Under the pieces are notes generated by a model. The model ran no database searches and was not told the origin of the DNA. It was given only the letters and a program-made list of their open reading frames with translations. Below are positions 5,715 to 39,378 of a stretch of DNA of 55,437 nt, one piece after another. The position numbers and the translations under genes were made by a program. Numbering within the stretch: the first letter of the stretch is position 1; every line of letters begins with the position of its first letter. Origin of the DNA: Oscillatoria sp. HE19RPO (GTDB taxonomy: Bacteria; Cyanobacteriota; Cyanobacteriia; Cyanobacteriales; Laspinemataceae); contig NZ_JAMXOT010000182.1 of NCBI RefSeq assembly GCF_024220515.1, forward strand, positions 1-55,437, read 5' to 3'.

Positions 5715-5831
5715 ATAGAGACCCAGAATACTTACTCTCAATCATTCTCTGGGAAGTCGGTAGCCCAATTCGAGAATGAGAAGAAGCGCTTCATATCAGG
5801 GCTGAGTCCGGTGATATTTTTGTTAAAGCCT

Positions 5832-8067: not shown

Positions 8068-8086
8068 GCAATCAAGGGGGTGCTAA

Positions 8087-9422: not shown

Positions 9423-12400
9423 ATGCATGACTTAGTTGGCTCATATCAAAGACTCGATCGCATCTATCACCTGTACATCAAAAGTGCCTTTCCCCTGCGG
9501 TATCGAGCTTTAGCAGAAGAACGAGATACCCTGCTCCAAAAACCCGGTATTTTGAGCCAACCGCCTTTAGTCGAACCCGTCCCAATTTATCCATCTTCGG
9601 ATATGAATTTATCCGCCGCCGCCGATCAACTCCCACCTGAATACCGGGATTTGGGACAACTCGGACAACAGCTTTTCGAGCCAAGTATTCCACTTTATCG
9701 GCATCAATGGGAAAGCTTGCACGAGGTGCTGGTCAACCAGAAGGATTTAGTCGTCACTACGGGTACGGGTTCCGGTAAAACTGAGTGTTTCCTCTTGCCA
9801 CTATTGGCACAGTTAGCACGAGAATCAAGCCAATGGCCAACTTGTCCGCCACCCCCCAACAATACCCGATGGTGGGATGATAGTGTCAATCCCATTGGCA
9901 ATTGGAAATCTCAATGGCAACACGCCACTCGACCGAAAGCTTTACGAGCCTTAATTCTCTATCCATTAAACGCCTTAGTTGAAGACCAATTGCGACGCTT
10001 GCGAAAAGCACTCGAAGCGCCATCAGTCCATCAGTGGTTAGATCGCGATCGCGGGGGAAACCGGATTACTTTTGGCCGCTACACCGGACAAACCCCCGTT
10101 TCAGGAATTCAAACTGACAACAGTATTAGACGACTCAAAACCGAGTTAAGGGAACTGGAACAGCAACGGCAACAAATCGATGCGGCAATTCAAAACAATC
10201 CTTCTCTGCTACAAGAGATGCCAGATTTGTCGTATTATTTCCCGCGACTGGATGGGGGAGAGATGCGATCGCGCTGGGATATGCAAGACACTCCCCCAGA
10301 TATTCTGATTACCAACTACTCTATGCTCAACATTATGATGATGCGGAGCATTGAAAATCGGATATTTGATCAAACTAAAAACTGGTTAGCCAGCGACCCC
10401 AAAAACCAATTTTTCCTAATTATTGACGAACTGCACGCCTATCGTGGCACCCCCGGAACCGAAGTCGCTTATATCCTGCGCTTGCTTTATGACCGTTTGG
10501 GATTAACCGCCGACTCACCTCAACTGCGGATTTTAACCACAACCGCTAGTTTAGAAAATAATTCCCAGGGTCGAGACTTTTTGCGCGAATTTTTCGGACG
10601 GGATAATTTTAAGTTTATTTCTGGAGAACAAATCCAACCCACACGGGGAGCGAGATTCAATCTTTCTGGGTATCAAAATGCGTTCGCTCAGTTTGCTCAA
10701 ACAATACAACCCGACCCATTGGAACCCATGCAACCGCCGGATCCAGCATCTAATCCAGTACGGGAGGCTATGTCAAATTTGGCGATGCAACTGGGTCAAC
10801 CGGCGGTAACTGGACTCAGTGCAGAACAACAGCTTGGGGAAGCATTGCGGAGGATAGAAGCTGCCGATGCACTGCGGGATGGTTGCCGAGAAGTTGACCG
10901 TTTGCTTAACCCAAGCGAGCCTAATCCTACAGTTCGAGCGACGAAAGTTATCAACCCAGACGAAGCAAATGAGCCAAAAGATTTAGACCGCCAACTGTTT
11001 GGTGCAGGGACGAATGGTGAAGTTTCTGAGAGTATGCGGGGACTGCTGTTGGCACTGGGAATGTCGCAATTACCCACAACCGGGCGATCGCCCCAACCCA
11101 TGCGCGGTCATTTATTTTTCCACAACCTGCAAAACCTTTGGGCTTGCTGTAATCCAGACTGTACCGACGATGCGGTAAATTCTCAACGTCGCGAACAAGA
11201 GGCAATTCGCCCCACCGTCGGTGCCATCCATGCCACCCACAGCTTAAGCTGTTCCTGTGGTTCCCGAGTTCTGGATCTACTCGTGTGCGAAGTTTGCGGC
11301 GATGTGTTTCTGGGAGGTTACAAGACAACGCGCAAGATAGGCAACACCAATATAGAGATTTTGACCCCCGACCAACCCAATCTCGAAGGGATTCCCGACT
11401 TAGTGGTACTCAACCAAAGCTATGGAAACTACCGAGTATTTTGGCCTTTACCCCACGAGACGCCAGCTTGGAATACGGAGCCTCAAGACCCAGAATGGAA
11501 GCTTGACAACATAAGACGCCGATGGGTTCGCGCCAAACTCAACCAAGTTACAGGTGTACTCACACACGATCGCCAACAACCAGAAGCGAATGAAATCCCA
11601 GGGTGGCTGTATCAGGTGATTGGCAATCGAGCAGACGAGCAACGCGCATTACCCAGTAAATGTCCCCGATGCGATGCCGACTACGGGAAACGAGAGAAAT
11701 TCCCCACCCCCCTACGCTTCCATCGCACGGGATTTCAAAAAGCTTGCCAAGTGCTTGCCAGTGGACTGCTACGGGAAATGCCAGCACCTCCCACTCCCAC
11801 CAGTCGCTCATCGCGCAAACTGGTGATATTTTCCGATAGTCGCCAAGATGCGGCAAAGTTATCAGCAGGGATGGAGCGAGATCATTACCGTGACATGGCA
11901 CGGATGCTGCTGATTCAGTCATTCCAAGATTATTGGAATGATTTGGTAGCATTTCTGCGGATTGTTTGTAGAAACAACCAGACAGCTTTGGCGAGATTGC
12001 AAGCACTGAATCCCAATCTTTATGCTGCGGTGGATGCAGCCTCCCACCCTGAAGATACAAGCCGATACAACCGCTTTACTAATGCTAACGCTCAGTTAGT
12101 TGCCGAAGCGTTTTCCTGGAATATGGATTTACCTTCGAGTAACCCACAAGCACGTAATGAGTGGCTTGGTTTACTCCAACGCTACCCAGAACGGATTGCG
12201 CTGTTGAATCTGCGCGATAAAGTTCGAGATTCCTTACTCAATTATGGAATTTGTCCCGGCAGACCTGGGTTTAACTCCATGCAATATACGGTTGGGCGTA
12301 GCAAGGGAAGACAAACATTTTCTTGGTTTGAGTGTTACAACTGGAATGCCAATCCAGTGGCACGGGTGATTCCTGGCTCTTCAGAACAACGAAATCATGC

Positions 12401-15185: not shown

Positions 15186-15277
15186 CTTTCCTCTCTTCTC
15201 TCTTCATAGCTGAAAGCTGATGGGTGATACCTGACTGCTTATTTGCATTCATAGTCAAAAATCTTGTAGGGCGAGAG

Positions 15278-15306
15278 TTGCGGAAATCAGGAAAAACGAT
15301 TATAAT
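15278..15306 (+). promoter_or_regulatory. Promoter of the vapBC pair
   Basis: A TTGCGG -35 element (15278-15283) and a perfect TATAAT -10 (15301-15306) are separated by 17 bases, upstream of the antitoxin gene. The helicase operon ends about 90 bases earlier, so vapBC has its own promoter. Confidence 0.65.
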
Positions 15307-15312
15307 CCTAAT

Positions 15313-15331
15313 GTTAAGGGTAAGTTTTAAC
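15313..15331. promoter_or_regulatory. Possible vapB autoregulatory operator
   Basis: An inverted repeat GTTAA (15313-15317) / TTAAC (15327-15331) lies at the expected transcription start. VapB antitoxins typically repress their operon by binding such repeats. The short arms make this tentative. Confidence 0.35.
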
Positions 15332-15348
15332 GCCTAAAGGAGGAATAT

Positions 15349-15570
15349 ATGATGCAAGTAATTAAGTGTAAAACTCGCGTTGATGCTGAAGGTAAAATAA
15401 TTTTACAAGTGCCTCAATCTTTAGCGAATCAAAAATTAGATGTAGTAATAGTCTACGATCTAGCCAATTCAGAAAATACTCAACCGCATGAAATAGTCGA
15501 TAGTTTTTATGGCTGTTTGGCAGAGGATCCTATTCTAGTGGAAGAAACCGATCAACAAAAAGTAGCATGA
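15349..15570 (+). CDS. VapB-like antitoxin
   Basis: This 73-residue protein is encoded directly before a PIN-domain VapC toxin, with the stop overlapping the toxin start (ATGA). It shares its N-terminal pattern (M-Q-x-I-x-x-K-T-x-V) with the orphan gene at 5388-5642. A near-perfect Shine-Dalgarno AAAGGAGGA ends five bases before the first ATG. The second ATG at 15352 lies at better spacing and aligns with the start of the paralogue, so it is probably the true start. It is predicted to neutralise VapC and repress the operon. The acidic C-terminal tail would be the part that inserts into the toxin. Confidence 0.78.
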   Translation: MMQVIKCKTRVDAEGKIILQVPQSLANQKLDVVIVYDLANSENTQPHEIVDSFYGCLAEDPILVEETDQQKVA

Positions 15571-15974
15571 GTTATTTACTGGATACCAATGTTTGGGCTA
15601 GATATCTAAATGGGCGATCGCCTGCAATTCGGCAGAAATTTAGAGAGGTTGATTTAACTCAAGTTTTTATTTGTTCAATTGTTAAGTCAGAATTGGCTTA
15701 CGGTGCTTTTAAAAGTCGTAATCCCGATCTAACCTACCGCAAGCAAAATGATTTTATTACTCTTTTTGTTTCGCTCCCTTTCGATGATGCTTCTGCTTTA
15801 ATTTTTGGTAGATTAAAGGCTCAACTAGAGTTAACAGGTGAAATGATTGGGATCAAAGATTTACAAATTGCTGCGATCGCTCTGGCAAACGATATGACGC
15901 TAGTCACCCACAATACGGCAGAGTTTGAACGGGTGACAGGGTTGCAAATAGAGGATTGGGAAGTAACTACATAG
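15567..15974 (+). CDS. vapC: VapC toxin, PIN-domain ribonuclease
   Basis: This 135-residue PIN domain has the expected acidic metal ligands: LLDTNVW at the N-terminus (first Asp), SELAYGA (Glu), and GIKDLQIAA in the C-terminal half (Asp). The closing THNTAEFERVTGL-x-x-EDW motif is that of the VapC clade that cuts initiator tRNA or other RNAs. The frame is intact and coupled to its antitoxin. It ends 45 bases before the stop of the converging reverse operon, so it sits exactly at the junction of the two big island modules. Confidence 0.93.
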   Translation: MSYLLDTNVWARYLNGRSPAIRQKFREVDLTQVFICSIVKSELAYGAFKSRNPDLTYRKQNDFITLFVSLPFDDASALIFGRLKAQLELTGEMIGIKDLQIAAIALANDMTLVTHNTAEFERVTGLQIEDWEVTT

Positions 15975-16019
15975 CCGACGCTCTATGTCCTTAATTTGGC
16001 CTAAATTTATAGAAAAAAG

Positions 16020-17132
16020 TTAATGCTTTTTATAGCGAGTTGCAGTAGGAGTTTGACTGTTTCTAAATAAAGCCTTCCAGTTTTTGCTCGGTTTATGGAA
16101 AAAAGGTAATGTATTGTTGGGACAGCTATAGTAATGACAGGTTAAAGCCCCAGAATTTCTATATCCCGGCTCACTCTTTCCTGTAGCCCGCAGGCAATAT
16201 TTTTCGATAAAGCTCTCATATTCTAATTCAGATATTTTGTGGTGGGCGAGAAGATCCATAATTTCTTTGCTTTTATAATCCAGCATTGGTTCATAATAGA
16301 TAGTCTCGCTGTTTTCCGGAGCCAATTCTAGACTAGCTAAGTCGAAGGATTCAGCCTGAACCACATACATGAAAATAAATAATGACTGTCGATATTCTGG
16401 ATACTTTTGTAGTAATTTGTTAATTTCGCGGATACATTTACGCAGTTGATTACCCGAACCATTTGTGTAGTCCATAAACACAAACACTGATGTTTCCGGA
16501 TCTCCCGAACCAGCTTCAAAATAATCGCGCAGAGGTTTAAATTTTTTACCGTCAGGAACGCTAGTTTTCGTTAAAGCAGCCCTTTCGTAGGTTCCCCATA
16601 GGCTGTCTTGACTTTCAACGGATGTATCTGGCGGTGAAGGGAATCTAGCATATCTAATAATTTTACTCCTAGACCATTTGTCAAATTCAAGCTTATCTTT
16701 CAAGGAAACTTTAGGAGCGGATCGAAAAGCTTGACAAAGACTATCTTTTTCTGAAAGTAAGTCCAGTAACTTAGTCTGTAAACTGCGAGTTGCCTTTTCA
16801 ATATCGCTTTTGGAGAAAAACTGAAACTTACTCAGGAGCAAATAGGCAATATTTTTCTCTAGAGTCGTTTCAAACTGATTCAGCCAATCGCGAATTGTTT
16901 TCCTGGATATCGAACCATCCCAACTAGAAAACCTGTCATAACAAGCCTCAATTTCTATATCGTCAAATAACAAAGAATCTTCTACCTGCCTTTCTTCTGG
17001 CAAAATTGCAGAAATTGGTCTTTCGTAGGGTTCCAATATTTCCCCTAATTTTCTTTGAAGTTGCTTGAGTTCATCGACAATAATCTGATGGTTAATCGGT
17101 GGGTAATTATTCTTTGATGTAGGTTCTGACAT
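16020..17132 (-). CDS. Phosphoribosyltransferase-like protein (PRTase-CE type)
   Basis: This 370-residue protein carries the PRPP-binding-like loop FVFMDYTNGSGNQ at about residues 217-229, where phosphoribosyltransferases have a hydrophobic strand, two acidic residues and a Thr/Gly/Ser loop. Here the second acidic residue is replaced by Tyr, so catalysis is doubtful. Near the C-terminus CPNNTLPFF and NWKALFRN match the P-x-N-T-L-P and W-x-x-L-F-x-R motifs of the conflict-associated PRTase-like family described by the Aravind group (name recalled; not verified). The N-terminal 150 residues are helical. It is the last gene of a reverse operon and follows the AAA ATPase by nine bases. The gene is AT-rich and lacks HIP1 octamers, pointing to transfer. 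It could bind a nucleotide or PRPP-like ligand as sensor or effector. Confidence 0.7.
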   Translation of the reverse strand: MSEPTSKNNYPPINHQIIVDELKQLQRKLGEILEPYERPISAILPEERQVEDSLLFDDIEIEACYDRFSSWDGSISRKTIRDWLNQFETTLEKNIAYLLLSKFQFFSKSDIEKATRSLQTKLLDLLSEKDSLCQAFRSAPKVSLKDKLEFDKWSRSKIIRYARFPSPPDTSVESQDSLWGTYERAALTKTSVPDGKKFKPLRDYFEAGSGDPETSVFVFMDYTNGSGNQLRKCIREINKLLQKYPEYRQSLFIFMYVVQAESFDLASLELAPENSETIYYEPMLDYKSKEIMDLLAHHKISELEYESFIEKYCLRATGKSEPGYRNSGALTCHYYSCPNNTLPFFHKPSKNWKALFRNSQTPTATRYKKH

Positions 17133-17141
17133 AAAATAAGT

Positions 17142-18536
17142 TTAAATTCTTTCACGAGAACGAAAAACATCTTTAAAAATTGAGTTTTTTAGGCTGTACC
17201 TATAGGGCCTCTTCCCAAAAAATTCCAGATAATCCTCAAACTCTTGCTTACTTCTAAGTTCACTTCCTGCCCTTTTTAACCGAGATGCAGCCTTTGATTT
17301 GTCTAGGCTATAAAAATAAGAAATAGAACAACTATCCTGCAACTTCAAAAGGTCTTGGATTGATTGTTTTCTCCCGCCACTAAGAAATAGAAGATTTAAA
17401 AAAGCTTCTGCTTCATCAGAAAAAGCTTTTACTTTATCTTCATCAGAAAAAGCTTTTACTTTTACTTTATCTTCTTCATCAGGCAGAGATAAAAAAGCTT
17501 TTACTTTATCTTCATCAGAAAAAACTTTTACTTTATCTTCATCAGGCAGAAATAAAGAAGTCCGTAGCTCCCCAAAATAAGCTTCTGCATACACGCGATA
17601 ACTATTACTAAAAATTCTGCGAGCCGTTTCAATCGTAACTGAGGTATGTGATGCTTCCGCTTCTGCCCAAAGCAATTGACAGATGGTTTCTATAAACCTG
17701 GGTACTCCTCCAGAAACGACTGAAACAAAGTCAATAACTTCCTCTTCAAAGGGATAAACCTTATTGTCAGTTCTCAAAGTTACAAAACTATTTTTTGTTT
17801 CTATATATCCTTTTACTTCTTGCGGACTTAAATGCTTGAGAATTTTAAAATTAAACCTTGCTTCTTGTAGCTGGCGAGCTTCTGACATAATTTGGCCATA
17901 GTATTCTTCAGAGACACTAACACATAATGCCCAACCTGGTCGCGCTAAAAATTTTTCTGACAAACTGTGCAAAAAGCTCATAAAATATTGTATTTTTATG
18001 CTCAGATTGGAAAATAATGCCTCTACTTCATCAAACGCAATTAATATATGAATTTTTTGTGTGTGCTGAAGAAGTTCAAAAAAAGTATCAAAAATATCAA
18101 TAAACTCTGTTTCTTCAAATAGTTTTCTGTCTGATCTGGTTAAGAGACCCTTTTTAACCAATGTATTGTACATCTTTAGTATAATCGCTCCCAGCAGACT
18201 TTCAAAATGTTTATCTGGCTGGCTTGATGCAGCAACTGGTGTCAAAAGTTCTTGAAATTTAATCGAAACGCATACCCCGCCGTTATCCTCAAATTCTTTA
18301 GCAATTAAATTGAGCAAGGTTGTTTTTCCATATCCATACTCTCCTACAAAAAATAGCTTAATTGGTCTTCTTATTTTGATAGATTGTTTGACTTCACGTA
18401 GCAAATCATTAATAAATTTTGTATGCACCAGTCTCGAACTGTATTCCGGAGATACTACTGAGGCAGCAGCACCGGAACTAACATAAGGATTTTGGGCGGG
18501 AGCTATTAAATTTCCGTTTACGTCTTGATAAGGCAT
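17142..18536 (-). CDS. AAA/ORC-like ATPase with a tandem acidic repeat
   Basis: This 464-residue P-loop ATPase has Walker A GEYGYGKTT at about residues 65-73 and Walker B ILIAFDEVEALF at about 164-175. A sensor-like segment CVSVSEEYYG follows, and further on VSGGVPRFIETIC resembles the lid region of ORC/Cdc6-type AAA proteins. Residues 345-390 hold a tandem array of a nine-residue unit like DEDKVKAFS. The C-terminus resembles a winged helix. I chose the ATG at 18536; an in-frame TTG two codons upstream overlaps the preceding stop. It sits 2 bases after the stop of the 287-residue gene, so the two are coupled. Likely role: ATP-dependent switch or loader in the module. Confidence 0.78.
   Translation of the reverse strand: MPYQDVNGNLIAPAQNPYVSSGAAASVVSPEYSSRLVHTKFINDLLREVKQSIKIRRPIKLFFVGEYGYGKTTLLNLIAKEFEDNGGVCVSIKFQELLTPVAASSQPDKHFESLLGAIILKMYNTLVKKGLLTRSDRKLFEETEFIDIFDTFFELLQHTQKIHILIAFDEVEALFSNLSIKIQYFMSFLHSLSEKFLARPGWALCVSVSEEYYGQIMSEARQLQEARFNFKILKHLSPQEVKGYIETKNSFVTLRTDNKVYPFEEEVIDFVSVVSGGVPRFIETICQLLWAEAEASHTSVTIETARRIFSNSYRVYAEAYFGELRTSLFLPDEDKVKVFSDEDKVKAFLSLPDEEDKVKVKAFSDEDKVKAFSDEAEAFLNLLFLSGGRKQSIQDLLKLQDSCSISYFYSLDKSKAASRLKRAGSELRSKQEFEDYLEFFGKRPYRYSLKNSIFKDVFRSRERI
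17409..17546. repeat. In-frame 27-bp tandem repeat inside the AAA ATPase gene
   Basis: About four to five imperfect copies of a 27-base unit (plus strand TTCATCAGAAAAAGC then TTTTACTTTATC) lie in frame and encode an Asp/Glu/Lys-rich nine-residue repeat. Some copies have extra codons, as expected from slipped-strand expansion. It lies between the ATPase core and the C-terminal domain. Confidence 0.85.
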
Positions 18537-18538
18537 AG

Positions 18539-19402
18539 TCAAACCGCAATAGCGGGTTCTAATATTTTAATAAATCCATAGTTGACACCTCGGATGTCAA
18601 CTAAATCAATTCCGATATTACGAGCAAACTGAGATTTAGTTGTCCTTAATTCAATGCGATGAGTAAGTTGCAATTGAATCAAATGTTTTTTGAATTTATC
18701 TTCCGTATAATCGGACACTTGTTTGAGATGAGTGAATATTGGGGCAAGGGGAACTAGCCCCAGGCTTTTTTGAGCTTGGTCTCCATAATTTTTAACAATA
18801 AAATCTAAAAGACTCAAATAATTGTCTATGGAAATTTTGTCTCGATAGAACCGATCCAGATAACCAACGCCAGGTTGACCCACAAAGCTATAGCCACAAT
18901 GTTGTACTAATAATTCTTGAAGTTTAGCGGGGGTGGGATTTTCTGGTAACCACTCTTTTTCATCCAGAATAGACAGAGCCTTGTTGTAATCTTTAACGAG
19001 TTGAGAATACTGGCATCCAATTTCCGTTAAGTTTTCGTTGAATCTTTCCAGATTATCGGAATGGTGGACTAAATTTTCTAGAGGAGTTACCGCTTGGATT
19101 TTTGATTGAACCGAAATAGAGGCTCTGGTTTTTCCAGTTTTTGTTTCAGAATAGATCTTACCATCAGCTTTATAAAAATCGAGAACGTAAAAACCCGCCA
19201 AATAGTTTTGTATGGTTGTAGCTGACATAGGAATTCCTGCTGGTTTGCCTTTATGTGGCTTATGAGTCACCAGCTTGCCTTCCAACCAAGACAAAGTAGC
19301 CTTTAGAGTCTGGCCGTTGTTGGCTACCAGACCCTCAGCTAGTATTTTCATATCTTCTGGATACTCTTTGGGTATATGAAAAACTGGAATGATTTTGGAC
19401 AT
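18539..19402 (-). CDS. Unrecognised protein with a C-terminal winged-helix-like segment
   Basis: This 287-residue soluble protein is of unknown family. The C-terminal 80 residues (LVPLAPIFTHLK, then FKKHLIQLQLTHRIELR and a final strand pair) have the helix-helix-helix-strand-strand pattern seen in winged-helix domains that accompany large P-loop ATPases in BREX- and Dpd-like systems. I chose the ATG at 19402. An upstream in-frame GTG at 19456 would place a promoter-like TGCTATAAT inside the coding region. The gene overlaps no neighbour upstream but is coupled to the AAA ATPase downstream. It is probably a bridging or DNA-binding subunit. Confidence 0.65.
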   Translation of the reverse strand: MSKIIPVFHIPKEYPEDMKILAEGLVANNGQTLKATLSWLEGKLVTHKPHKGKPAGIPMSATTIQNYLAGFYVLDFYKADGKIYSETKTGKTRASISVQSKIQAVTPLENLVHHSDNLERFNENLTEIGCQYSQLVKDYNKALSILDEKEWLPENPTPAKLQELLVQHCGYSFVGQPGVGYLDRFYRDKISIDNYLSLLDFIVKNYGDQAQKSLGLVPLAPIFTHLKQVSDYTEDKFKKHLIQLQLTHRIELRTTKSQFARNIGIDLVDIRGVNYGFIKILEPAIAV

Positions 19403-19436
19403 AGCGGGTTTTTTACCCGAAAGGGGATATCCCTCA

Positions 19437-19445
19437 ATTATAGCA
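19437..19445 (-). promoter_or_regulatory. Extended -10 promoter inside the reverse operon
   Basis: On the reverse strand TGCTATAAT forms a perfect extended -10 element in the 188-base gap after the large ATPase gene, without an obvious TTGACA at -35. It would give a second transcript covering the last three genes. The same nine-base string appears in the hairpin ahead of the reverse transcriptase. Confidence 0.5.
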
Positions 19446-19590
19446 TCCAGTCGCACCTGACACCCTGGGTTGAGGTTGATGAAACAAAAATTTACATTTT
19501 GTTGAGTGGCTATGCTGGAAGTTCTGCCGTTTTAAGGAATGTCAATTCGCTATCTTTTAGGCATCGCCAGTCAATCCTGCGATCTAACGA

Positions 19591-22500
19591 CTACTGTGAC
19601 TCTCTCTGGGAGAGGGTAATTTCCACATGACCCTTCTCATATAAAGTTTTCAACTGTTTCCACAGGTCTAAACTCTCTGGTGTGGAGGAGCGCAGTTGGC
19701 TGATGACGATCGCACCCGATGCGATCGCCTCTAAAATCTGTTTTTCCTCTCCTGCTAAACTGGCATCCGGCTCAAACTTTTCTTGAACTGTCACCTGTAT
19801 TGCGTCAAGTTTTGCGCCTACCCCGTGCAACTGTTCGATCGCCGCTTCTAAGGCGTTTATGTCAGTGATTAGTTTAGGAAAATCGGTGCTTAACTGGTCA
19901 AGTTCATCTTTTAACTCTGTGACCCGATCGCATAATTCCGTCACATCCTGTTGCCGCTCCCATCTCAAAAAAGACAAATCACGTTCTAGCTTTTCCCGTT
20001 GACTCAATCGGCGATCGCACTCTTCCTGCACCTGCTCTAGGAACACCTGGTTCAAAGTTTCATAAGAACCCAGACTATCTTCATCATCATACCGACAGAG
20101 GAGGCTGAGACGGCTTTGCTCCTGGTCCAGGCGAGTTAGTAACCCTTCATACTTGTTCAGCCTTACCTCGAACGCTTCTCGCTGCGATCGCCGCTCGCTA
20201 TTCATCTGTTCCTCAATTTCAAGCAAAGGACGTTGCAGCAACTCGTATTCTAAGAAGCCCTCGACTTGGCGATTGTTAAAATATTCAACAACGCGATCGA
20301 CAAATTCATCTTCATAACGCCTCAAGCGCTCTGGCTGATTATCCAACTCCTCTTTTAACTTTCCGGCACGGTTTAGAATAATTCGCCATTCTTCTAACCC
20401 AGCAACCAAGGGTTGAAGGCGGTCTTTAGTCTGTTTCAATCGTTCAAACTCCTGTTGACACTGTTCTATTTGACGAAACAAACTCAAGACTTCTGCATTG
20501 ATTTCTATCGATTTAACTACAGTCTCGCACTCTTTCTTTAATTGGTTTACTTCTCTCTCTAAAACTTTTCGATGGTCATCTAGGCAAGCTTCTACACCGC
20601 TATTGCCACTCAAAATTTGATTCACTTTAGACCCATTAAAATCAGCGGTCAATTGTTTGACACTGACTTTAATCTGGTTCAAATATTGCTGGAGGTTAAC
20701 TTTTTTTTCCGAGCAGAATGCGACTAGACGCTCTCCCTCTAACTGAATCGTTCTCTGAAATTGGTCGAGTGCTATCTCGGACCCATGTTTTTTCTGGCTT
20801 GACTCAACATTACCTTGTTCAAATAGAGGCAATTGCCGGGTCTGGTTGGATTGCTCCAATGAATGTACAATCTTGGCAAGGGATTGCTGTTGGCCTTCAA
20901 TGCTCGTGGAAATTTCATGCAGAAGGGGGTCGTTAAAAACTTCTAATAATGAAGCAACTTCGGCGCTAAGTTGATTTAAACTCCAACTCAAATCATTGGC
21001 ATCGAGTTCGGCGACTGATTGGCGAACTATTTTCTTTTTGCGATCCCACTCCACATACCGTCGTCGTTGCAACCATTCCAGTGTTTCCTGAAACTCCAGT
21101 TCAAGATAACCCTGTTCGCTAACTGTTTTCCAAACTTCTGGATAGGCTAACGCTTTTACTTCTTGTATTCCTGAAACCGTTTCAACGGTTTGCATTCTTC
21201 CTTTGGACTCCAACTGACTTTGAATGAAAGATTCAAGGGGATGTTCAGTGAAGGTGATTCGGGACAATTTCTCTTTTTGGTTGGCAATTTTATAGTCAAC
21301 CACTAAAGCGTGCCTGCTCAAAACGGCTAAAATGCTCCCCAGACCTGATCCAGAGGTTTCAAATAATTGTTCAAATTCTTCCTTGGGCGCTTGATAGGTC
21401 TCGCGACCTCGCCGAACTGCCAAGGGAAGTTTTTCCAGTAACAATTTATATTTGAGTACCGTGGGACGCAAGTTACTATAGAAAGACTGGTACTCTGGAA
21501 ATAACGATTGACATTTCTGATAGAATACTGACTCTATCAGTTTAGTATCTGCCCCCTCAACTGCCTCTAACCCCTCAACTTTCCAACTGGCGGATTGAAT
21601 GGCTGGGAACAGCAATCGTAGAGCATACTGGTGACATTCCCGACGGTGGTGTTCCAATCGGGCGCGTTCGGATTTGCTAATATCCGAATGGTCTACGAGC
21701 CAATCTTGGATGAATTGGGATAAGCTCAGTAAGGTACAGGCGGAACATTGTTCGGGAGGAATGACATTGTTGAGTAATCCGAATGCAGGGGGATATTCTC
21801 GACCAAAACTGCGAGCAAGCTGGAGGTGAAAGTCAACTTGACCTGTTCCGGCGATCGCTGTTAATCTCTGTTCAGGTTTTTCCGAGATATTTCCGTCGTA
21901 GCTCAAGTAAAACCGCCAGTCTAGATGAGTGGGTTGGGGTGGCACAAATTGCATTAATTCTGACGGGTTATTCCCAACTGACAGGGTTAAAGAACGATTG
22001 GGAAATTGAGCATGATGCCGTTCGGGAGCGCCAGTTAAGACATTGAAAAAACCAAATCTATCTTGTTTCCAAGTTATAGATGGCCAATTCCAGTTGGCTT
22101 TTTGACCGGATATAGATGCGGGAAACAGTAACGGAAGCAGATCCTTCATGAATGGGACTGTGGCCCGTTCTTGTTTTTGAACATCGTTCCAAGTTCCAAA
22201 CCAATTTTGACGAAAGCGATTGAGTATTTTGTCTACAACTGTAGGATCGTTAGGTCGTTTGAGCGCTGCTAACGCAAAGCTCTGCTCTGTGGGTTGGGTA
22301 ATTTGAAGCCCCGATAAGTTGTCATCGTTGGCAAGTTCACTGATACTTTTTAATACTCCAAATTCTTTAGCGTGGGTGGCAGAAACTCCGGCGGGAAACA
22401 TTGCCATCAGTTTAATGGCCTCAAGTCCTTGTGGATGTTTGATAATGGGGGGTAACAGTTCCAATGTGGCGATCGCATTATTAATTTTGTGCTGCTGAAC

Positions 22501-23580
22501 CCCATAAAATTCAACTCGGCCTTCTAAATAATCCTGAATTAAATGGACCGGAGTATAGGCCGTTTCATGCTCTCGATAAAATCTGACAATTCGTTTAAAC
22601 ACTTCAATGACCGTGCGCGGACCACTACTGAGATCCTTGCGATCGCACAACTGACTCAAACTCTCAATTGTTGCCGGATGTGCTAATTGCCAACCTTGGG
22701 ATTGATCTCCCAGGAACTTGACACACAGCGATGTCCAAAGTTTTCCAGGAAATTCATAGGTATAGGCATCAGCTAATCTGAGGGAAACTTTCTGCTCTTT
22801 CATGCGGTGAATAATATCACCGGCTTGTTCATCAATGGCTGATTCGGTGGGAGTCGTAGGCATCCCCAGCATTAAGGCGATGGGAATCTTCCCCAAAGAC
22901 CGCATCCCTTTAATCAGATCACTTAAAACTTGAATGCGAGCGCTGGCACCTTCTTCGGTTCTAAGGAATTCCTGGCTTTCATCCGCAAATATAGCTAAAC
23001 CTCGAAACCCAGCTTTTTGAATAATGGGAATGGTCTCCTGCCAAAAAAGTAGAACGCTATCAGGTGAGATCTCCGTATTAAATTCTTGAACAATTTTGAG
23101 CGCTTTTTCTCGACTAAGTTTGTACTTAGAGGCGATTTCAACCGCTTGCTCCTCTAAAGACTTTACAGTACACTCATCATATAAGGCGTCCAATTCAGGT
23201 AAAAATTCACTTTTCTGTTCTTTTTGTAAGATGGCTTTAATCCAAGCATAAGTGGCAACCATCAAGTTTTCCACTTCTTTAAACTTGAATGGAGGAACGG
23301 CAACGATTTGATTTTGCTGACACTGAGACCACAAATAAATCAAAGTGGCGGTTTTGCCATAGCCATAGTCCGCACTCAGGTAGCCATTGACTGATTTTCC
23401 TTTCTCAAGTTCTTCAATCAATCGATTTCTCAGTTCCTTGACGCGATCAAGCGGATCGTAACTATTCGCATATAACTGATAAACAGTAGCTACCCCAAAA
23501 GGCTCTCGTTCTATCTGGGAAGGGCTAACTGTATCGACAATTGCTTCAATTTCATCTAGTTGTCTTAAAAACTTTTCCAT
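19591..23580 (-). CDS. Giant P-loop ATPase with long coiled coil
   Basis: This 1329-residue protein has an N-terminal ATPase domain. Walker A is DYGYGKTAT (Gly-Tyr-Gly-Lys-Thr at 73-77) and Walker B is LAIFADESQEFL (Asp-Glu at about 200-201), with a sensor-like ALMLGMPTT at about 240. The middle (300-850) is mixed helix and strand of unknown fold. From about 900 to 1270 it is a nearly unbroken coiled coil (Glu/Gln/Leu/Arg heptads). Large ATPases with this layout serve as BrxC/PglY in BREX and as DpdH-like subunits of deazaguanine systems; I cannot tell which is closer. It lies 31 bases downstream of a small winged-helix-like gene. The likely role is a motor or sensor that couples recognition to restriction. 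Confidence 0.82.
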   Translation of the reverse strand: MEKFLRQLDEIEAIVDTVSPSQIEREPFGVATVYQLYANSYDPLDRVKELRNRLIEELEKGKSVNGYLSADYGYGKTATLIYLWSQCQQNQIVAVPPFKFKEVENLMVATYAWIKAILQKEQKSEFLPELDALYDECTVKSLEEQAVEIASKYKLSREKALKIVQEFNTEISPDSVLLFWQETIPIIQKAGFRGLAIFADESQEFLRTEEGASARIQVLSDLIKGMRSLGKIPIALMLGMPTTPTESAIDEQAGDIIHRMKEQKVSLRLADAYTYEFPGKLWTSLCVKFLGDQSQGWQLAHPATIESLSQLCDRKDLSSGPRTVIEVFKRIVRFYREHETAYTPVHLIQDYLEGRVEFYGVQQHKINNAIATLELLPPIIKHPQGLEAIKLMAMFPAGVSATHAKEFGVLKSISELANDDNLSGLQITQPTEQSFALAALKRPNDPTVVDKILNRFRQNWFGTWNDVQKQERATVPFMKDLLPLLFPASISGQKANWNWPSITWKQDRFGFFNVLTGAPERHHAQFPNRSLTLSVGNNPSELMQFVPPQPTHLDWRFYLSYDGNISEKPEQRLTAIAGTGQVDFHLQLARSFGREYPPAFGLLNNVIPPEQCSACTLLSLSQFIQDWLVDHSDISKSERARLEHHRRECHQYALRLLFPAIQSASWKVEGLEAVEGADTKLIESVFYQKCQSLFPEYQSFYSNLRPTVLKYKLLLEKLPLAVRRGRETYQAPKEEFEQLFETSGSGLGSILAVLSRHALVVDYKIANQKEKLSRITFTEHPLESFIQSQLESKGRMQTVETVSGIQEVKALAYPEVWKTVSEQGYLELEFQETLEWLQRRRYVEWDRKKKIVRQSVAELDANDLSWSLNQLSAEVASLLEVFNDPLLHEISTSIEGQQQSLAKIVHSLEQSNQTRQLPLFEQGNVESSQKKHGSEIALDQFQRTIQLEGERLVAFCSEKKVNLQQYLNQIKVSVKQLTADFNGSKVNQILSGNSGVEACLDDHRKVLEREVNQLKKECETVVKSIEINAEVLSLFRQIEQCQQEFERLKQTKDRLQPLVAGLEEWRIILNRAGKLKEELDNQPERLRRYEDEFVDRVVEYFNNRQVEGFLEYELLQRPLLEIEEQMNSERRSQREAFEVRLNKYEGLLTRLDQEQSRLSLLCRYDDEDSLGSYETLNQVFLEQVQEECDRRLSQREKLERDLSFLRWERQQDVTELCDRVTELKDELDQLSTDFPKLITDINALEAAIEQLHGVGAKLDAIQVTVQEKFEPDASLAGEEKQILEAIASGAIVISQLRSSTPESLDLWKQLKTLYEKGHVEITLSQRESQ

Positions 23581-23611: not shown

Positions 23612-24451
23612 CTAAACTAATTCCGTCCAGTCCGGGGATTTAGTGAGCGATATCCATTGCCCATAGCCCCCTTCATAGCCCCAATCAAAGAAACCGCCGC
23701 AATCATAATCATAAGTGCGTTTTGCATTATCTAGACTGCCTTCTAATCCGCTGGGATCAAGAACCAACATTTGACAAATAGAATCTTTAATTTCTTCTTT
23801 TAAGAAGATTTTAACTCCATAAGTTCTCTGCTGTTGCTTGTAGATACTATCTATTGATTTTACCACAACGGGAGCCGAGCAGAAGTAGCGACGACTGAAA
23901 AATTCGGGTTTTCCTTGAGGTTCAATGACCGGGGGTGATAGGGTGCGTAACCAATTGAGAATACCGGCAATACTGGTATCACTAAAAGCAATGTCACTGG
24001 TGGGTTCTTGATACTGCAAGGAAGCGGATTCAATTGTTTCTCCAACCAGGGCCTTTTTTTCAGGCATTGATAAAACGACTTCTTGTCGCGCCCATAGTTT
24101 TTGTACAACCGTTGCATAAGCCCAAGAAAACCTTTTATTCGGTTCTTGTAAATGAAGTTGATAAATCAAGCTATGAAAAAACTCTCCCAGTAAATCGGGG
24201 TGTTTCTGAAGGATATCAACAGCCACTTTTCCTTGGGGAGTTAAACTCGGACTTTTAGTCTGTCGTTCCAAAATAGAAATATTTCTCAAAAAAGGAAAGA
24301 CATTTTTTTGTAATACTGCAACCCCCAGGTTACAAATAGAGGCAAGTTCTTCTAAATCGTCTTGGGGATGATTTTCTATAAAATCCAGGATAGCGGATAC
24401 TCTTTCTAGAGTAGTATTTTGCTGGAGATGTAAGGTTAATCTTTTTGCCAT
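23612..24451 (-). CDS. Winged-helix-like protein next to the TGT fusion
   Basis: This 279-residue protein is of unknown family. The first 75 residues show a winged-helix pattern: three helices (VSAILDFIEN, LEELASICN, LQKNVFPFLRN), then a strand pair with SLTPQGKVAVDIL, which resembles the wing and C-terminal helix of transcription-regulator-like domains. The remainder is mixed, with a Gly/Tyr/Asp-rich C-terminus (DYDCGGFFDWGYEGGYG). It follows the GNAT-TGT gene with one base between the genes. In size and position, between a DpdA-like gene and a giant ATPase, it recalls DpdG of the Dpd cluster, but I cannot show homology. It could be a specificity subunit or the operon's own regulator. Confidence 0.68.
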   Translation of the reverse strand: MAKRLTLHLQQNTTLERVSAILDFIENHPQDDLEELASICNLGVAVLQKNVFPFLRNISILERQTKSPSLTPQGKVAVDILQKHPDLLGEFFHSLIYQLHLQEPNKRFSWAYATVVQKLWARQEVVLSMPEKKALVGETIESASLQYQEPTSDIAFSDTSIAGILNWLRTLSPPVIEPQGKPEFFSRRYFCSAPVVVKSIDSIYKQQQRTYGVKIFLKEEIKDSICQMLVLDPSGLEGSLDNAKRTYDYDCGGFFDWGYEGGYGQWISLTKSPDWTELV

Positions 24452-24452: not shown

Positions 24453-25835
24453 TTACCCTTCTAAAGTATCCAGCCATGCGGCCAAGTTATGCATAATTCG
24501 ATAATCACGACTGGTTCTTAATTTTTGAATATCCTGGCAAAAATAGCAGGAATGATTGGTTTCTGTTTTGAGCTTTTCAAAGCCTGATTTTGTTGTTTCC
24601 AATCCTCGCCTTACCGTAATTTGAATTTGAGAAGTATTCGGAAAAAAGATGCTACCAAATCCTCCTGCTTTCCACCAGGTTGTACTATCGAGAGAGTGGG
24701 GATACAGGTTATTTCTACGAAGCCGATTAAAGCTGCTAGGACCTCCGATTCCGAAGCAATGAACCTGCATTCTATATTCATTCGCAATCGTGCAAACAGT
24801 TTTAAACAATGCCAAGCTAGACTCGGAAAGCATATTCACACTTCCATTGGGTCCTGATGTTCCCCAGGATCCGAAACCAATGCGCTCAATACCCATTCTA
24901 TTATAAGTTTCGATACAGCGTTTTATTTGGTGAATGTAACGACCTTGTACCGGGGCGATCGCACGCTCTTGTACATACAGTGGCATTTGGCTAAAAAACC
25001 GTTCACACTGATAGAGCGTTTCGCGAACTTTATATTCTACAATTTCATCACTATCAGTGCTTAAGGGAACAATATCGGGCAATACATATCCATCAGTCCA
25101 TTGATTCTGGCGATAAAATCGGTCCAAAAATGAAAGTAACTCGTCATAAGTTCGTTTCCCTTGCTGCACCTGATAAGCCCCACAATCAAGCCAAACAGTT
25201 TCGATTTCTTCTGCCCGTTTTTGGTTTTGCAAATATTCAGTCGTGGATGCAGGAGAAGCAATGGGAGAATAGAGGACATGAGCAAATGGATTGCGCGGGT
25301 CTCCCCCGGATTTCCAAAGCTGAAACAGTCGCTTGAGTTCTGAACTGCTGGCGGTGAAAGAAGCAATAAATTGGGGACGATCTTGTGCAATTGGAAGGAG
25401 TTTCTTTTCCCAAACCACCAAGGGCCGATTTTTCCCTGGTTCAATCTTAACTCGGCGAAAATTTAGGCGCGAATAAAATCCATTAGCTGGTAAATCCAAT
25501 GGGCATTTAAGCCGCAAAGTAGTCATTCCACAACTTCTACTATGCTCCTCCCACGCTTGGCATAGCTGACGACCAATCCCTTGCTTTCGTAAACAGGGAG
25601 CGACTACGAGATGATAAAGCGTGGAAATCTTATCTCGTCGGTGATGAAAGTGCAAAAATCCCTGTTCTGGGATGTGAAAAATTTCTTGGTTGTTGATGGC
25701 CTCAGCGAGAATGGCTCCATTGACAAATCCCAACTCTTTCCGATGGGCGTCAGCCATTGTCTTAAGATCAGATAAGTCCTCGGTTCGGCTCAATTTCACC
25801 TTTGGAACAACAACGGTCTGCACTGTTTCCCCCAC
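24453..25835 (-). CDS. GNAT acetyltransferase fused to a TGT (DpdA-like) domain
   Basis: This 460-residue two-domain enzyme has a GNAT fold at residues 1-148, with acetyl-CoA motif A VVAPCLRKQGIGRQL (R/Q-x-x-G-x-G at 83-88) and the final NGFYSRLNFRRV strand. Residues 155-460 are a tRNA-guanine transglycosylase barrel. DCGAYQ (217-222) replaces the TGT DSGGFQ base-binding motif. APVQG (294-298) matches the VQG motif. FGIGGPSSF and then HSLDSTTW place the likely nucleophile at Asp383. CYFC (430-433) with a following His (449) fits the TGT zinc site. DpdA proteins use this barrel to insert preQ0 into DNA, and SLDSTTW resembles their motif. The start is GTG at 25835, preceded by GGAGGGAG. First gene of the operon. 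An acylated deazaguanine product is inference. Confidence 0.85.
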   Translation of the reverse strand: MGETVQTVVVPKVKLSRTEDLSDLKTMADAHRKELGFVNGAILAEAINNQEIFHIPEQGFLHFHHRRDKISTLYHLVVAPCLRKQGIGRQLCQAWEEHSRSCGMTTLRLKCPLDLPANGFYSRLNFRRVKIEPGKNRPLVVWEKKLLPIAQDRPQFIASFTASSSELKRLFQLWKSGGDPRNPFAHVLYSPIASPASTTEYLQNQKRAEEIETVWLDCGAYQVQQGKRTYDELLSFLDRFYRQNQWTDGYVLPDIVPLSTDSDEIVEYKVRETLYQCERFFSQMPLYVQERAIAPVQGRYIHQIKRCIETYNRMGIERIGFGSWGTSGPNGSVNMLSESSLALFKTVCTIANEYRMQVHCFGIGGPSSFNRLRRNNLYPHSLDSTTWWKAGGFGSIFFPNTSQIQITVRRGLETTKSGFEKLKTETNHSCYFCQDIQKLRTSRDYRIMHNLAAWLDTLEG

Positions 25836-26746: not shown

Positions 26747-28243
26747 ATGTCTAAGTTGATAGACGATAAACTTTGTCAATACTTTCAACCCGAAAAAGTT
26801 GAAGAAGCCTTTTTGAGATATAAAGAGGCCAAACATGATGTTTTGACAGAAGAAATAAGAATCCCAATGGGAGCCGATGGTATTTCTTCTAAAACCTTTG
26901 AAAAAGAATTATCAAGGCGGTGTCAATTTATTTCCAAAAGAGTAATTCAGGGCACTTATCTTTTTTACCCGTTTCGAGAAGTTAACATTCCTAAGCCATC
27001 GGGTCAAGAAAGAGTTTTAGCGATCGCAACGATTCGAGACCTTCTCGTTCAAAAAATTTTGTACGAACTTCTATATGAGGAAGTAGAAAAACTTTTTAAG
27101 GCAACTCCTAAATTAGACCGAGTGTCCTGCGCTTATCGAAAAGGCAAGTCTGCTCCTTCCGCAGCTAGACTGATCCATAACTATATTCAATCCGGTTTTC
27201 AATTTAGCTTAGATGCCGATATTGTTAAATTTTTTGATGTCATTGCTCACGACCGTCTAATCTCTATCATTGAAGATTTATGGGGTCATGAAACTAGGGT
27301 AAGCAGCCTACTCCGAAGATTTATTAAAACCAGCGGAATTCCCTACAGAGATGAGCAAAATAAACCCAGGAATTATAAATTTTTTCACCACTACAAGCCA
27401 CCCCGAAATGTTCGGGTAAAAGGCATTCCTCAAGGAGGAGTGCTTTCTGGAATGTTGGCTAACTTATATTTACATGAATTTGATAGATGGATTTTAGAAG
27501 ATTTAGCACCCGAGTTTCCTTTACGATATGTTCGTTATGCCGATGATTTTATTGTCCTTCTGAAAACCCAAGATGACCTTCCAGCAATTCATAGTCGAGT
27601 TGAGGAAAAACTAGGCGAAATAAAACTTCAGCTTCATCCCATCCTAGATGATTTGGGAAAGTCTAAAACTAAGTATGTAGACATTTCTAAAAATCCTTTG
27701 GTTTTTGTAGGATTTGAATTGACTTTAACTGATGTTAGAGTTAGCCCCGATAATATTCAGCGATTTCAAAATAAAATTTCTCACAAAATAGAAAAAGAAA
27801 GGGGTTATAAATTTTCCGACAACCCCCGTGAGCGCTTTTTTAGATTAATTGACTATGTTATCAACAAAAAAATTCAGGGGAGACCGGAAAACCTATGTCC
27901 GGTATGTGGGGGCTTACTCGATAAAAATAACCGCAACTGGGTCGGGTTTTTCTCCGTTGTTACAGACACTCAGCAGTTTCATGATTTGGATAAATGGATT
28001 CGGACTCAACTCTGTCAGTATTTCTATAAAACCTATCAAATTAGGCTTAAAAGAAGGGACTTTCGCGAGGCCGGGTTAGCAAGCATAAAACGAGAATATT
28101 ATAAAAATCATAAATCAAAAAAATGTTCTTGTAAGCCTTTAAATTTTAAATACATTCTCTATTGGGTATTTTTGACAAAACAATTTGATTTTTTAGAAGA
28201 AGCTATCACAGTTCACTTAGGGGTAGAAATTTTGAAAAAATAA
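26747..28243 (+). CDS. Reverse transcriptase, defence-type candidate
   Basis: This 498-residue RT has an RT0-like MGADGIS (about 42-48), KPSGQERVLAI, catalytic SLDADIVKFFD (first Asp about 155), GIPQGGVLSGMLANLYLHEFD (from about 225), YADD at about 264-267 and VGFEL near 323. The C-terminus (about 375-498) replaces a maturase or HNH domain with a basic region holding a CPVC pair and a later CSC, a possible zinc ribbon. No group II intron domain V follows, and I see no template/variable repeat pair of a diversity-generating element. A hairpin-rich leader precedes it, as in retrons and DRT systems. The gene is AT-rich, unlike its host. The class cannot be named from motifs alone. The ATG at 26747 has only a weak ribosome binding site. 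Confidence 0.85.
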   Translation: MSKLIDDKLCQYFQPEKVEEAFLRYKEAKHDVLTEEIRIPMGADGISSKTFEKELSRRCQFISKRVIQGTYLFYPFREVNIPKPSGQERVLAIATIRDLLVQKILYELLYEEVEKLFKATPKLDRVSCAYRKGKSAPSAARLIHNYIQSGFQFSLDADIVKFFDVIAHDRLISIIEDLWGHETRVSSLLRRFIKTSGIPYRDEQNKPRNYKFFHHYKPPRNVRVKGIPQGGVLSGMLANLYLHEFDRWILEDLAPEFPLRYVRYADDFIVLLKTQDDLPAIHSRVEEKLGEIKLQLHPILDDLGKSKTKYVDISKNPLVFVGFELTLTDVRVSPDNIQRFQNKISHKIEKERGYKFSDNPRERFFRLIDYVINKKIQGRPENLCPVCGGLLDKNNRNWVGFFSVVTDTQQFHDLDKWIRTQLCQYFYKTYQIRLKRRDFREAGLASIKREYYKNHKSKKCSCKPLNFKYILYWVFLTKQFDFLEEAITVHLGVEILKK

Positions 28244-28355: not shown

Positions 28356-28449
28356 GGATTATAATAAAAGTTTGGTTCAACCGCAGTAGATCGGATTCTT
28401 AAGTTATGAGCCGAATCGAGGAGGGTTGCGATCGCATGAGGGAAAAACA
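28356..28449 (+). promoter_or_regulatory. Conserved promoter and structured leader of queD
   Basis: GGATTATAAT contains a perfect -10 (TATAAT at 28360-28365). The transcribed leader can form nested stems: CAACC with GGTTG (outer) and GATTC with GAATC (inner). The queD relic at 5832 keeps the same layout, and there GGTTC pairs with GAATC through a G-U pair, which preserves the inner stem. A riboswitch or protein-binding leader is possible. It does not fit the preQ1-I consensus. Confidence 0.5.
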
Positions 28450-28839
28450 ATGCCAAAATGGAAAGTCACAACAGAATTCACCTTTGACAGCGCCCACTTC
28501 ATCAAAGACTACGATGGACCCTGCGGACGGATGCATGGACATACCTATCGAGTGCGGATAGAAGCCACAACCCAGAAGCTACACTCCTCCGAATACTGCC
28601 CCCACGAGGTCATGGTTGCCGATTTCAAAACCCTCCGTTGGGCAAAACGGGATGTCACAAAAGGCGGATTAGATCACTGTGTACTCAATGACGTGATGCC
28701 ACCGGAATATGAAACCACCGCAGAGATGATCGCCAAATACATTTACGATGAAACCAAACGCCGGTTACCAGAAGGGGTGCGCTTGAAGGTAGCCGTCTCA
28801 GAAACGCCAAATTCCTGGGCTGAGTATGAGGATGATTGA
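28450..28839 (+). CDS. queD: 6-carboxy-5,6,7,8-tetrahydropterin synthase
   Basis: QueD converts 7,8-dihydroneopterin triphosphate into 6-carboxytetrahydropterin, the second step towards preQ0, the precursor of queuosine and of 7-deazaguanine DNA bases. The zinc ligands are visible: FDSAHF, then CGRMHGHTY with the catalytic Cys and two His. VMVADF, LDHCVLND and the terminal VSETP are the other family motifs. I chose the ATG at 28450 (129 residues, normal length) with GAGGG upstream, over an upstream TTG. It lies just after the RT and closes the island, opposite the queD relic. Its stop overlaps the start of the UPF0175 gene. It may serve host queuosine synthesis, the TGT-fusion module, or both. 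Confidence 0.93.
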   Translation: MPKWKVTTEFTFDSAHFIKDYDGPCGRMHGHTYRVRIEATTQKLHSSEYCPHEVMVADFKTLRWAKRDVTKGGLDHCVLNDVMPPEYETTAEMIAKYIYDETKRRLPEGVRLKVAVSETPNSWAEYEDD

Positions 28840-38538: not shown

Positions 38539-39378
38539 TTACAAGACTTCCTTATTTTTGGTTTTGACGCGAGTGTAAAAGTCGGACATGACTTCCAAAA
38601 AGGAAATATCTTTTTGCCAAAAGGGAGGAAAGTCACCGGCTTTTTTAATCAGAATGGCGGGAACGATCGCCGGTTGGGGGGGTGGCGGTGGCGGTGGCAG
38701 TCGTTTGGCACCCATCCAAAACTCTTTTAAATCAGCGGTGGCATTAACTGGGACTCGTTCCGGTTGGGTGTAATAGGATTCCGAGGGTTCCGGGACGATC
38801 GCCGTTTCATGCAAGGAGGCAGAAAGGGCTTCTCCTAATGGAGTTTTTGCGAGTTCCGTTTGCAAGTCTTCCCGAGACAGTCCCCGCAGTTCAAAGAGTA
38901 AGAAAGGGTCGGAATCTAATTGCGCCGCAACTAAATAATAAACCCCAGCAATATGTTTACATGGGTTGGCATAATCCGGACAAGAACAGCTTGTTTTAAA
39001 GTCGTTGCGACTGTCTGGAAGTAAATGCAGTTTCAAGTCGGCAAAGGCGGAATTGATATTATCCGGCACTTCATTCATTAACAGTTTTGAGACGAAACTG
39101 GCATTGGAGGCAATGGCTTTAATCGCCTTGGACCATTGCGCCGGGGAAATCGGCTGGATTTCAATTTTGACGGTGTAGAGAGGTTCTTTGTACACCCCAA
39201 AATAAGGATTCACTGAACCCCGAACTTTGGCGCTAATTTGATTGTTGATAATCCGATACTCTTTGATTTTACCATTTTTGGCGTAGGATCTGCCCCGTCC
39301 CAATCGGCTGGAATCGCTAAAGTCTTCTAATGCTTCAATAAAGCGTTTTCCCCACCAGGTTCTGCTAAAGGTTGCCAT
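38539..39378 (-). CDS. SWIM zinc-finger protein
   Basis: This 279-residue protein has the SWIM motif CSCPDYANPCKHIAG at about residues 128-142 (C-x-C-x(n)-C-x-H, zinc binding; DNA or protein interaction). A Pro-rich linker at about 229-237 precedes the C-terminal 45 residues. It lies five bases after the upstream SNF2 helicase gene and is cotranscribed with it. Across bacteria SWIM proteins and SNF2 helicases with a DUF3670-type N-terminus are frequent neighbours, which suggests joint work on chromosomal DNA. Confidence 0.88.
   Translation of the reverse strand: MATFSRTWWGKRFIEALEDFSDSSRLGRGRSYAKNGKIKEYRIINNQISAKVRGSVNPYFGVYKEPLYTVKIEIQPISPAQWSKAIKAIASNASFVSKLLMNEVPDNINSAFADLKLHLLPDSRNDFKTSCSCPDYANPCKHIAGVYYLVAAQLDSDPFLLFELRGLSREDLQTELAKTPLGEALSASLHETAIVPEPSESYYTQPERVPVNATADLKEFWMGAKRLPPPPPPPQPAIVPAILIKKAGDFPPFWQKDISFLEVMSDFYTRVKTKNKEVL

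Follow-up and report, generated by a model that had tools for sequence, protein, structure and literature searches.

In the 55,437-nt contig NZ_JAMXOT010000182.1 of the cyanobacterium Oscillatoria sp. HE19RPO (this whole stretch of DNA is called the window below) we analyzed a minus-strand gene at positions 24453–25835 encoding a 460-aa protein, GNAT-TGT, in which a GNAT acetyltransferase (about 25395–25835) is fused to a tRNA-guanine transglycosylase (TGT) type domain (about 24453–25394). By computation we could establish the fold of this protein, its catalytic aspartates (by alignment), its operon and its linkage to Druantia and BREX-like genes. We give an even chance to the reading that GNAT-TGT serves a composite defence island as its modification enzyme and makes an acylated 7-deazaguanine self-mark, which would spare the host DNA from a Druantia/BREX-like effector. 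The TGT half would swap guanine for a 7-deazaguanine from the host queuosine pathway and the GNAT half would N-acylate, most simply N-acetylate, preQ1 on its exocyclic aminomethyl group, either ahead of insertion or once the base is in place. The target would most likely be DNA, where a winged helix-turn-helix (wHTH) protein and a BrxC-like ATPase would guide the enzyme to the sites of modification. Thanks to the mark, DruE, DruF and DruL (in one relative also PglZ and HerA) would leave the cell's own DNA intact and attack invaders that lack it. A first-pass annotation, made from the letters of the window, had suggested that a deazaguanine base or its precursor is acylated in DNA or RNA; with a GNAT domain, a TGT fold and the aspartates in place this is plausible, whereas we infer the DNA target, the preQ1 acceptor, the acetyl group and the self-marking.

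The open reading frame (ORF) is intact over 460 codons from 25835 to 24453 with a GTG start, and stop codons break the plus-strand frame. It had been annotated with no strand given, and we can now assign it to the minus strand. The GNAT domain, formerly placed at residues 1–148, is borne out at about residues 10–147 both by Pfam (PF13508, 8.7e-9 and PF00583, 1.6e-7, each passing its cut-off) and by structure, as residues 10–147 of the predicted model superimpose on Ard1 (5c88) with Z 19.9 and a root-mean-square deviation (rmsd) of 1.4. The loop R83-K-Q-G-I-G88 follows the pattern R/Q-x-x-G-x-G/A, which we take to be the acetyl-CoA loop motif of the GNAT superfamily, and the predicted fold and the motif both place this half in that superfamily. 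For the C-terminal half a profile of seven sequences, including haloarchaeal and cyanobacterial plasmid TGTs, found the archaeosine TGT (ArcTGT) 1iq8 (1e-21) and the DNA-guanine transglycosylase DpdA 7ui4 (2.9e-11) in the PDB. The AlphaFold2 model of GNAT-TGT (mean predicted local distance difference test score, pLDDT, 78; predicted template modelling score, pTM, 0.64) matches ArcTGT 1j2b (VIA) over residues 144–460 with Z 19.1, rmsd 3.2 and 268 aligned residues, and in the Foldseek list for the model GNATs lead and the first TGT stands at rank 35 (2z1w, 2.3e-6, rmsd 10). The TGT half also matches a stand-alone protein from a Haloplanus plasmid (35%, 1.5e-48 in a small set; 33%, 3e-40 among all plasmids), which in turn matches the PADLOC TGT and DpdA models at 1.2e-5. 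The C-terminal half is thus predicted to have the TGT fold that had been proposed for it, and the label 'DpdA-like' is supported only indirectly, through the Haloplanus homologue.

The residues Asp217 (DCGAYQ) and Asp383 (LDSTTW), already suspected to lie in the active site, align with the aspartates in the ArcTGT motifs DSGSFQ and FDSAS and are invariant in all 11 TGT sequences compared, and from this alignment the two catalytic aspartates of the TGT superfamily appear to be in place. The candidate zinc site that had been seen around CYFC has a His in place of its first Cys, giving H428-x-C430-xx-C433 ... H449 in 10 of the 10 sequences that reach the site; residues 425–429 within it are modelled at pLDDT below 50. 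GNAT-TGT differs from ArcTGT (1iq8, 1j2b), with which it shares the fold over the aligned residues and the aspartates, in this His, in the fused GNAT and in its length, as ArcTGT runs to 576–582 residues whereas the window protein stops past the zinc domain.

One base past the stop of GNAT-TGT begins a gene for a 279-aa protein (23612–24451, minus strand), a candidate BrxA/DUF4007-type DNA-binding subunit that matches a 282-aa homologue from the Haloplanus plasmid (26%, 5e-16). Its model shows an N-terminal winged helix in residues 3–86 (wHTH matches with Z about 10) and falls below pLDDT 50 in residues 172–279; no DUF4007 match was found in Pfam, BrxA was absent from the structure matches shown and the PDB profile search gave no BREX protein. 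It is followed by a gene for a 1329-aa protein (19591–23580, minus strand), which we call BrxC-like from its homology to a Haloplanus protein of 1363 aa (24% over 909 aa, 1e-60). This Haloplanus protein reaches 27.3 bits with Pfam BrxC_BrxD (cut-off 22.2); the window protein had no Pfam match to BrxC_BrxD or DUF6079, and the profile of its family found no BREX protein in the PDB.

A related class of systems, BREX-Related Capture (BRC), has been described in 45 taxa with PglZ, DUF6079, a STAND NTPase, DUF4007, HerA/FtsK, GNAT and TGT (Rakesh & Krishnan, Nucleic Acids Res. January 2026, PMC12839542). In the parts of that paper drawn on here, HerA is universal in BRC by definition, GNAT and TGT occur in a subset, the GNAT is "occasionally fused with TGT", acyl and 7-deazaguanine self-marks are proposed and the substrate of the GNAT is left open. 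As the paper describes both the fused GNAT-TGT and the acyl/7-deazaguanine marks, neither the fusion nor the broad concept is new to the literature, and the claim of the first-pass annotation that this fusion had not been described in a defence island does not hold. The pairing of the fusion with Druantia and the specific base that it would make were not found described: the words 'Druantia' and 'QueC' do not occur in the text of PMC12839542, and a literature search for Druantia with tRNA-guanine transglycosylase found nothing.

The island in the window resembles BRC in its GNAT and TGT (at times fused in BRC), its BrxC-like ATPase, its candidate wHTH protein and the proposed mark, and differs from it in that no HerA or PglZ was found and in carrying DruF, DruL and DruE alongside. 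Queries with the HerA proteins of Haloplanus and of the genome G197 found none in the window, and the best match in the whole genome was a 595-aa frame on another contig (24%, E 5.3e-5). PglZ was equally absent from the window in blastp searches with the G197 and Haloplanus proteins, and the PADLOC model PDLC02564 had no match in the window's own genome, a model of weak sensitivity here as the Haloplanus PglZ-like protein itself matched it just at 3.6e-6. As neither HerA nor PglZ was found in these searches, the window is not filed as BRC and we classify it, from its gene content, as a probable BRC-related, Druantia-linked variant. Both genes occur in the Haloplanus locus: besides the TGT and the 282-aa protein it encodes HerA, a PglZ-like protein, a BrxC/D ATPase, a small AAA protein and, as a gene of its own, a GNAT, and queC, queE and queD adjoin the TGT operon in divergent orientation. 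They also occur in G197, where GNAT-TGT and the counterpart of the 279-aa protein share a 38-kb stretch with HerA, a PglZ-like protein, two BrxC-like genes, Druantia and an NTPase of 206 aa (with no relative in the window), so that a single island unites the published BRC type with the Druantia-linked one. This island would suit the view that the system in the window is a full BRC member whose HerA and PglZ were merely lost or lie elsewhere in the genome; given the searches above, and as blastp found relatives of the two proteins in G197 alone among the ten loci with GNAT-TGT (within the locus sequence examined), we regard this as very unlikely. Two further observations concern the G197 island (L034): a DndB homologue (3.3e-95) lies upstream of DruF at 498–1586, and between DruE and HerA (10871–17459) there are proteins of 1811 and 387 aa with no PADLOC match at E≤0.01.

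On the plus strand of the window three Druantia-type genes follow each other and converge on the GNAT-TGT operon. They encode a DruF-like protein (6373–8067, 564 aa; PADLOC DruF2, 1.7e-23, best stretch residues 2–232), a DruL-like protein that also resembles the DruF2 C-terminus (8087–9418, 443 aa; PADLOC DruL4, 2.5e-17) and a DruE-type giant helicase (9423–15185, 1920 aa; PADLOC DruE4/DruE2, E=0; 75.5% to the Oscillatoria protein). The run as such is like Druantia of the PADLOC types II/IV, but no separate DruM or DruG was found among the scanned proteins (13 of the 57 listed ORFs of the window were covered by the PADLOC scan). Druantia types like these use a DruM methyltransferase, and GNAT-TGT would here be the modification enzyme instead.

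GNAT-TGT was found in ten loci, namely the window, G197 (L003), a plasmid of Oscillatoria nigro-viridis PCC 7112 (L006) and L014–L020. Scans with a single sequence had given no relative in genome contigs or viral contigs; an alignment query then gave seven genome-contig loci and one viral locus, while viral scans gave no match for profile A1 or the Haloplanus TGT, and the phage TGT as query returned its own record only. Six full-length homologues are 69–72% identical to the window protein and the TGT halves of L014–L020 are 72–78% identical to that of the window. In a sample of 386 genomes of the phylum there was one full-length relative besides the window's own genome, plus two matches to the GNAT alone, which by eye lie in an unrelated setting (L005) and in a longer ORF with no visible TGT (L004). 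In eight of the ten loci (the window, L006, G197, L014, L015, L016, L018 and L020) DruE lies no more than about 22 kb from GNAT-TGT, seven times in convergent layout and once, in L018, divergent, with a gap of 373 bp common to DruF and GNAT-TGT. L019 lies on a 7.8-kb contig and ends at the contig edge, so that proximity to DruE is not judgeable there; a different contig of this genome carries DruF-like, DruE and BrxC-like genes side by side. Signs of decay are seen in L015 and L016, where the BrxC-like gene is truncated and split, respectively.

Alternatively, Druantia and the GNAT-TGT operon could be two systems that work independently of each other and happen to occupy a common defence hotspot. 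L017 has the operon with other genes downstream and no DruE was found in its genome, the PIN, DUF6575 and PRTase-CE genes vary among the loci and a reverse transcriptase is seen in the window only; co-inheritance on a shared mobile element would likewise be compatible with the linkage to DruE. Against this stand the eight of ten loci with DruE nearby and their layout, compared to a base rate of 11 in 146 sampled genomes of the phylum with DruE4 at E≤1e-100, the window's own included, and we therefore hold independent systems to be somewhat unlikely.

Returning to the acylated self-mark, its building blocks should be available, because the host genome, searched for QueC, QueD, QueF and TGT, has the three Que enzymes, from which preQ0 and preQ1 can be expected, besides a canonical tRNA TGT. 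In Haloplanus the homologue of the TGT half has queC, queE and queD next to it, which speaks for a deazaguanine substrate. Reduction of preQ0 by QueF yields preQ1 with its free aminomethyl group, and as the nitrile of preQ0 offers no amine at that position preQ1 would be the natural acyl acceptor. Viruses carry comparable gene sets. In the viral contig L021 the GNAT (33.6% to the window) and the TGT (44%) are separate genes with a 4-base overlap, the TGT gene being frame-broken near its 3' end, and their neighbours are a beta clamp, a helicase, a PD-(D/E)XK nuclease and a DNA polymerase; QueC was not found in this record, which may be a fragment. In phage vB_DshS-R5C one cluster holds FolE, QueD, QueC, QueE, QueF (1.1e-29) and a DpdA-like gene, and the second gene past the latter is a GNAT with 34% to that of the window (blastp, 11-sequence set; 33%, 1e-4 in a search of all phage records). 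R5C is thus like the window in a related GNAT, a DpdA-like enzyme and the preQ1 gene set, and differs in having separate genes and a distant TGT. A remote GNAT relative is gp48 of PaMx11, which has 29.7% identity with the virus GNAT (5e-5) and is preceded by an FAD oxidoreductase and an amino acid:DNA transferase (1.6e-27); according to Lee et al. in 2021, the acetyltransferases of such clusters reportedly acetylate thymine in phage DNA at an aminomethyl group. Phage DNA was also reported, by Cui et al. in 2023, to contain N-formyl-preQ1, which like the proposed mark is an N-acylated 7-aminomethyl-7-deazaguanine in DNA, but is made by a formyltransferase (DpdN) in phages and not by a cellular GNAT. 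The contexts of L021, R5C and PaMx11 are not mentioned in the passages of PMC12839542 considered here. Directly upstream of the GNAT and TGT genes of L021 we also noted a SAVED-domain protein (3195–3956, 8.1e-15), which places an immune sensor domain next to a putative pair of DNA-modification genes.

The mark might also do without acylation of the base. In that case the TGT would insert preQ0 into DNA, which has been proposed for BRC systems, and a protein would be the substrate of the GNAT, for instance to regulate the complex or to block antidefence. The top structural matches of the GNAT domain are protein N-terminal acetyltransferases (Ard1, NatA, Naa50), which would fit such a role, although GNATs in general resemble Ard1. 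In the ten loci, however, the GNAT and the TGT form one protein and in L021 their genes are neighbours, and in R5C the GNAT stands second after the DpdA-like gene amid base-synthesis genes including QueF. Even with the published suggestion that the modification is 'perhaps restricted to dPreQ0 alone' (PMC12839542), a mark of preQ0 with a protein-directed GNAT seems unlikely to us.

The choice of DNA over RNA as the target draws on the partners of the enzyme and on TGT profile scores, as the TGT fold itself fits either. The profile of the window-type TGT was run on nine TGT-type proteins (E-values of this profile/blast comparison come from sets of 9–11 sequences), of which the host tRNA TGT scored lowest with 1.1 bits and the TGT of virus STSV2 highest outside the training set with 28.1 bits; three virus or plasmid TGTs (STSV2, L012 and L010) lie at 20–28 bits. 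Were the enzyme instead to act on RNA, be it tRNA or some other kind, in the role of an immune effector or sensor, one would point to the fold common to tRNA TGTs, to the archaeosine tRNA TGT being the best structural match in the list and to DpdA-type proteins scoring little above the host tRNA TGT. The difference between the three virus or plasmid TGTs and the host enzyme, the wHTH, BrxC-like and DruE partners and the position of the L021 genes within a DNA replication module all speak for DNA, and make an RNA target quite unlikely. From the Dpd system, with which it shares the TGT fold family, the window differs in that the operon proteins scanned had no match to a DpdA model, DpdB or DpdC, and in the extra GNAT.

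Several results weigh against an acylated self-mark on DNA coupled to Druantia. In direct searches the TGT half found no TGT or DpdA model at E≤0.1 in Pfam, PADLOC or NCBIfam; phmmer with the whole protein against the PDB gave three acetyltransferases, all weak, and no TGT, and the tight profile A2 from four close homologues found no TGT there either, so that without the structural model the case for a TGT rests on the intermediate proteins of the seven-sequence profile. As the DpdA of R5C and the haloarchaeal protein L010big reach 5.7 and 6.1 bits with the window-type profile, hardly above the host tRNA TGT, the scores are a weak argument for DNA. The Haloplanus GNAT is only remotely related to that of the window (17.1 bits) and belongs to another subgroup, for which reason the acyl acceptor may differ there; the R5C GNAT (gp88) is a short protein of 111 aa with Pfam GNAT matches below the cut-off, and in megaphage LR756501 a GNAT with 43% to the phage GNAT has, by eye, no TGT in 16 kb. 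No queC/D/E-like ORF was found in the other nine loci within the sequence examined, DruE is in pieces in L014, and L017 has the operon in a genome with no DruE found.

With these points in mind we put forward a more specific proposal tentatively, and as a doubtful one: cyanobacterial Druantia-type restriction would use N-acetyl-preQ1 in place of methylation as its DNA self-mark, written by GNAT-TGT under BrxC-like/wHTH targeting, and phage R5C and the L021 virus would share the chemistry as camouflage. If an acylated self-mark is indeed made, a cellular immune system would write an acylated deazaguanine into its own DNA, and no acetylated base of this kind was among the matches listed in our literature searches. 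The BREX-related and Druantia families would then be tied to one marking enzyme, and the amine of preQ1 would be a substrate hypothesis for the GNAT whose substrate PMC12839542, in the parts considered, leaves open.

Between DruE and the BrxC-like gene the window carries an accessory cassette on the minus strand (16020–19456), which is also present in L014, L020 and G197. It encodes a 305-aa protein (18539–19456), a 466-aa AAA ATPase (17142–18542), which was considered for the STAND NTPase of BRC and reached 28.4 bits with AAA_16, below the cut-off of 32.6, and a 370-aa PRTase-CE protein (16020–17132; Pfam PF24390, 7.3e-25; PADLOC PRTase_III-A, 4.9e-22). The AAA protein was considered as a HerA and rejected, as it gave just a weak match to mad8 in the Walker region. 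The cassette, including the 305-aa protein, is not listed in the Oscillatoria plasmid L006, where DUF6575 and a 137-aa gene occupy its place. A PIN-domain gene (15567–15974, plus strand) lies between DruE and PRTase-CE, and two relatives of it (51% over 134 aa and 96% over 104 aa) are found in the same gap of L015. In L020 a Cas5 homologue and a TnsD/TniQ protein lie upstream of the GNAT-TGT operon (4388–8399), which suggests a Tn7-like element nearby.

Beyond GNAT-TGT, a QueD/PTPS homologue is encoded at 28426–28839 on the plus strand (Pfam PF01242, 4.3e-31). It was considered as a part of the system and rejected as a probable chance neighbour, because the genome has a second copy on contig C281 and no QueD-like ORF was found in the other nine loci within the sequence examined. 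Between GNAT-TGT and QueD lies the gene of a 498-aa reverse transcriptase (26747–28243, plus strand; PADLOC RT, 1.1e-51 and RT_UG17, 7.8e-50), whose group II-type NCBIfam match is below the cut-off; about 0.9 kb upstream of it hold no listed ORF of at least 100 aa, and Rfam gave nothing in the window at the gathering threshold. Further along, an SNF2 helicase with DUF3670 (39384–42542) is paired with a SWIM zinc-finger protein (38539–39378) on the minus strand.

Other TGT settings were seen on plasmids. The haloarchaeal plasmids L010, L011 and L013 encode a protein of about 970 aa, a second TGT paralogue, a protein of about 295 aa and a BrxD-like ATPase; in L010 the large protein matches DpdA (3e-69) and contains a DpdC-like stretch (1.3e-7), and the ATPase match has 3.8e-10. 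All three carry queD, L010 and L013 also queE, and L013 in addition queC and folE; from their gene content these operons appear to be a Dpd-like system with a BREX-type ATPase. A further cyanobacterial case is the plasmid L012 of Aulosira laxa, where a DpdA-like TGT (11410–12471, 8.4e-8) is encoded close to a protein of 1041 aa and a putative exonuclease.

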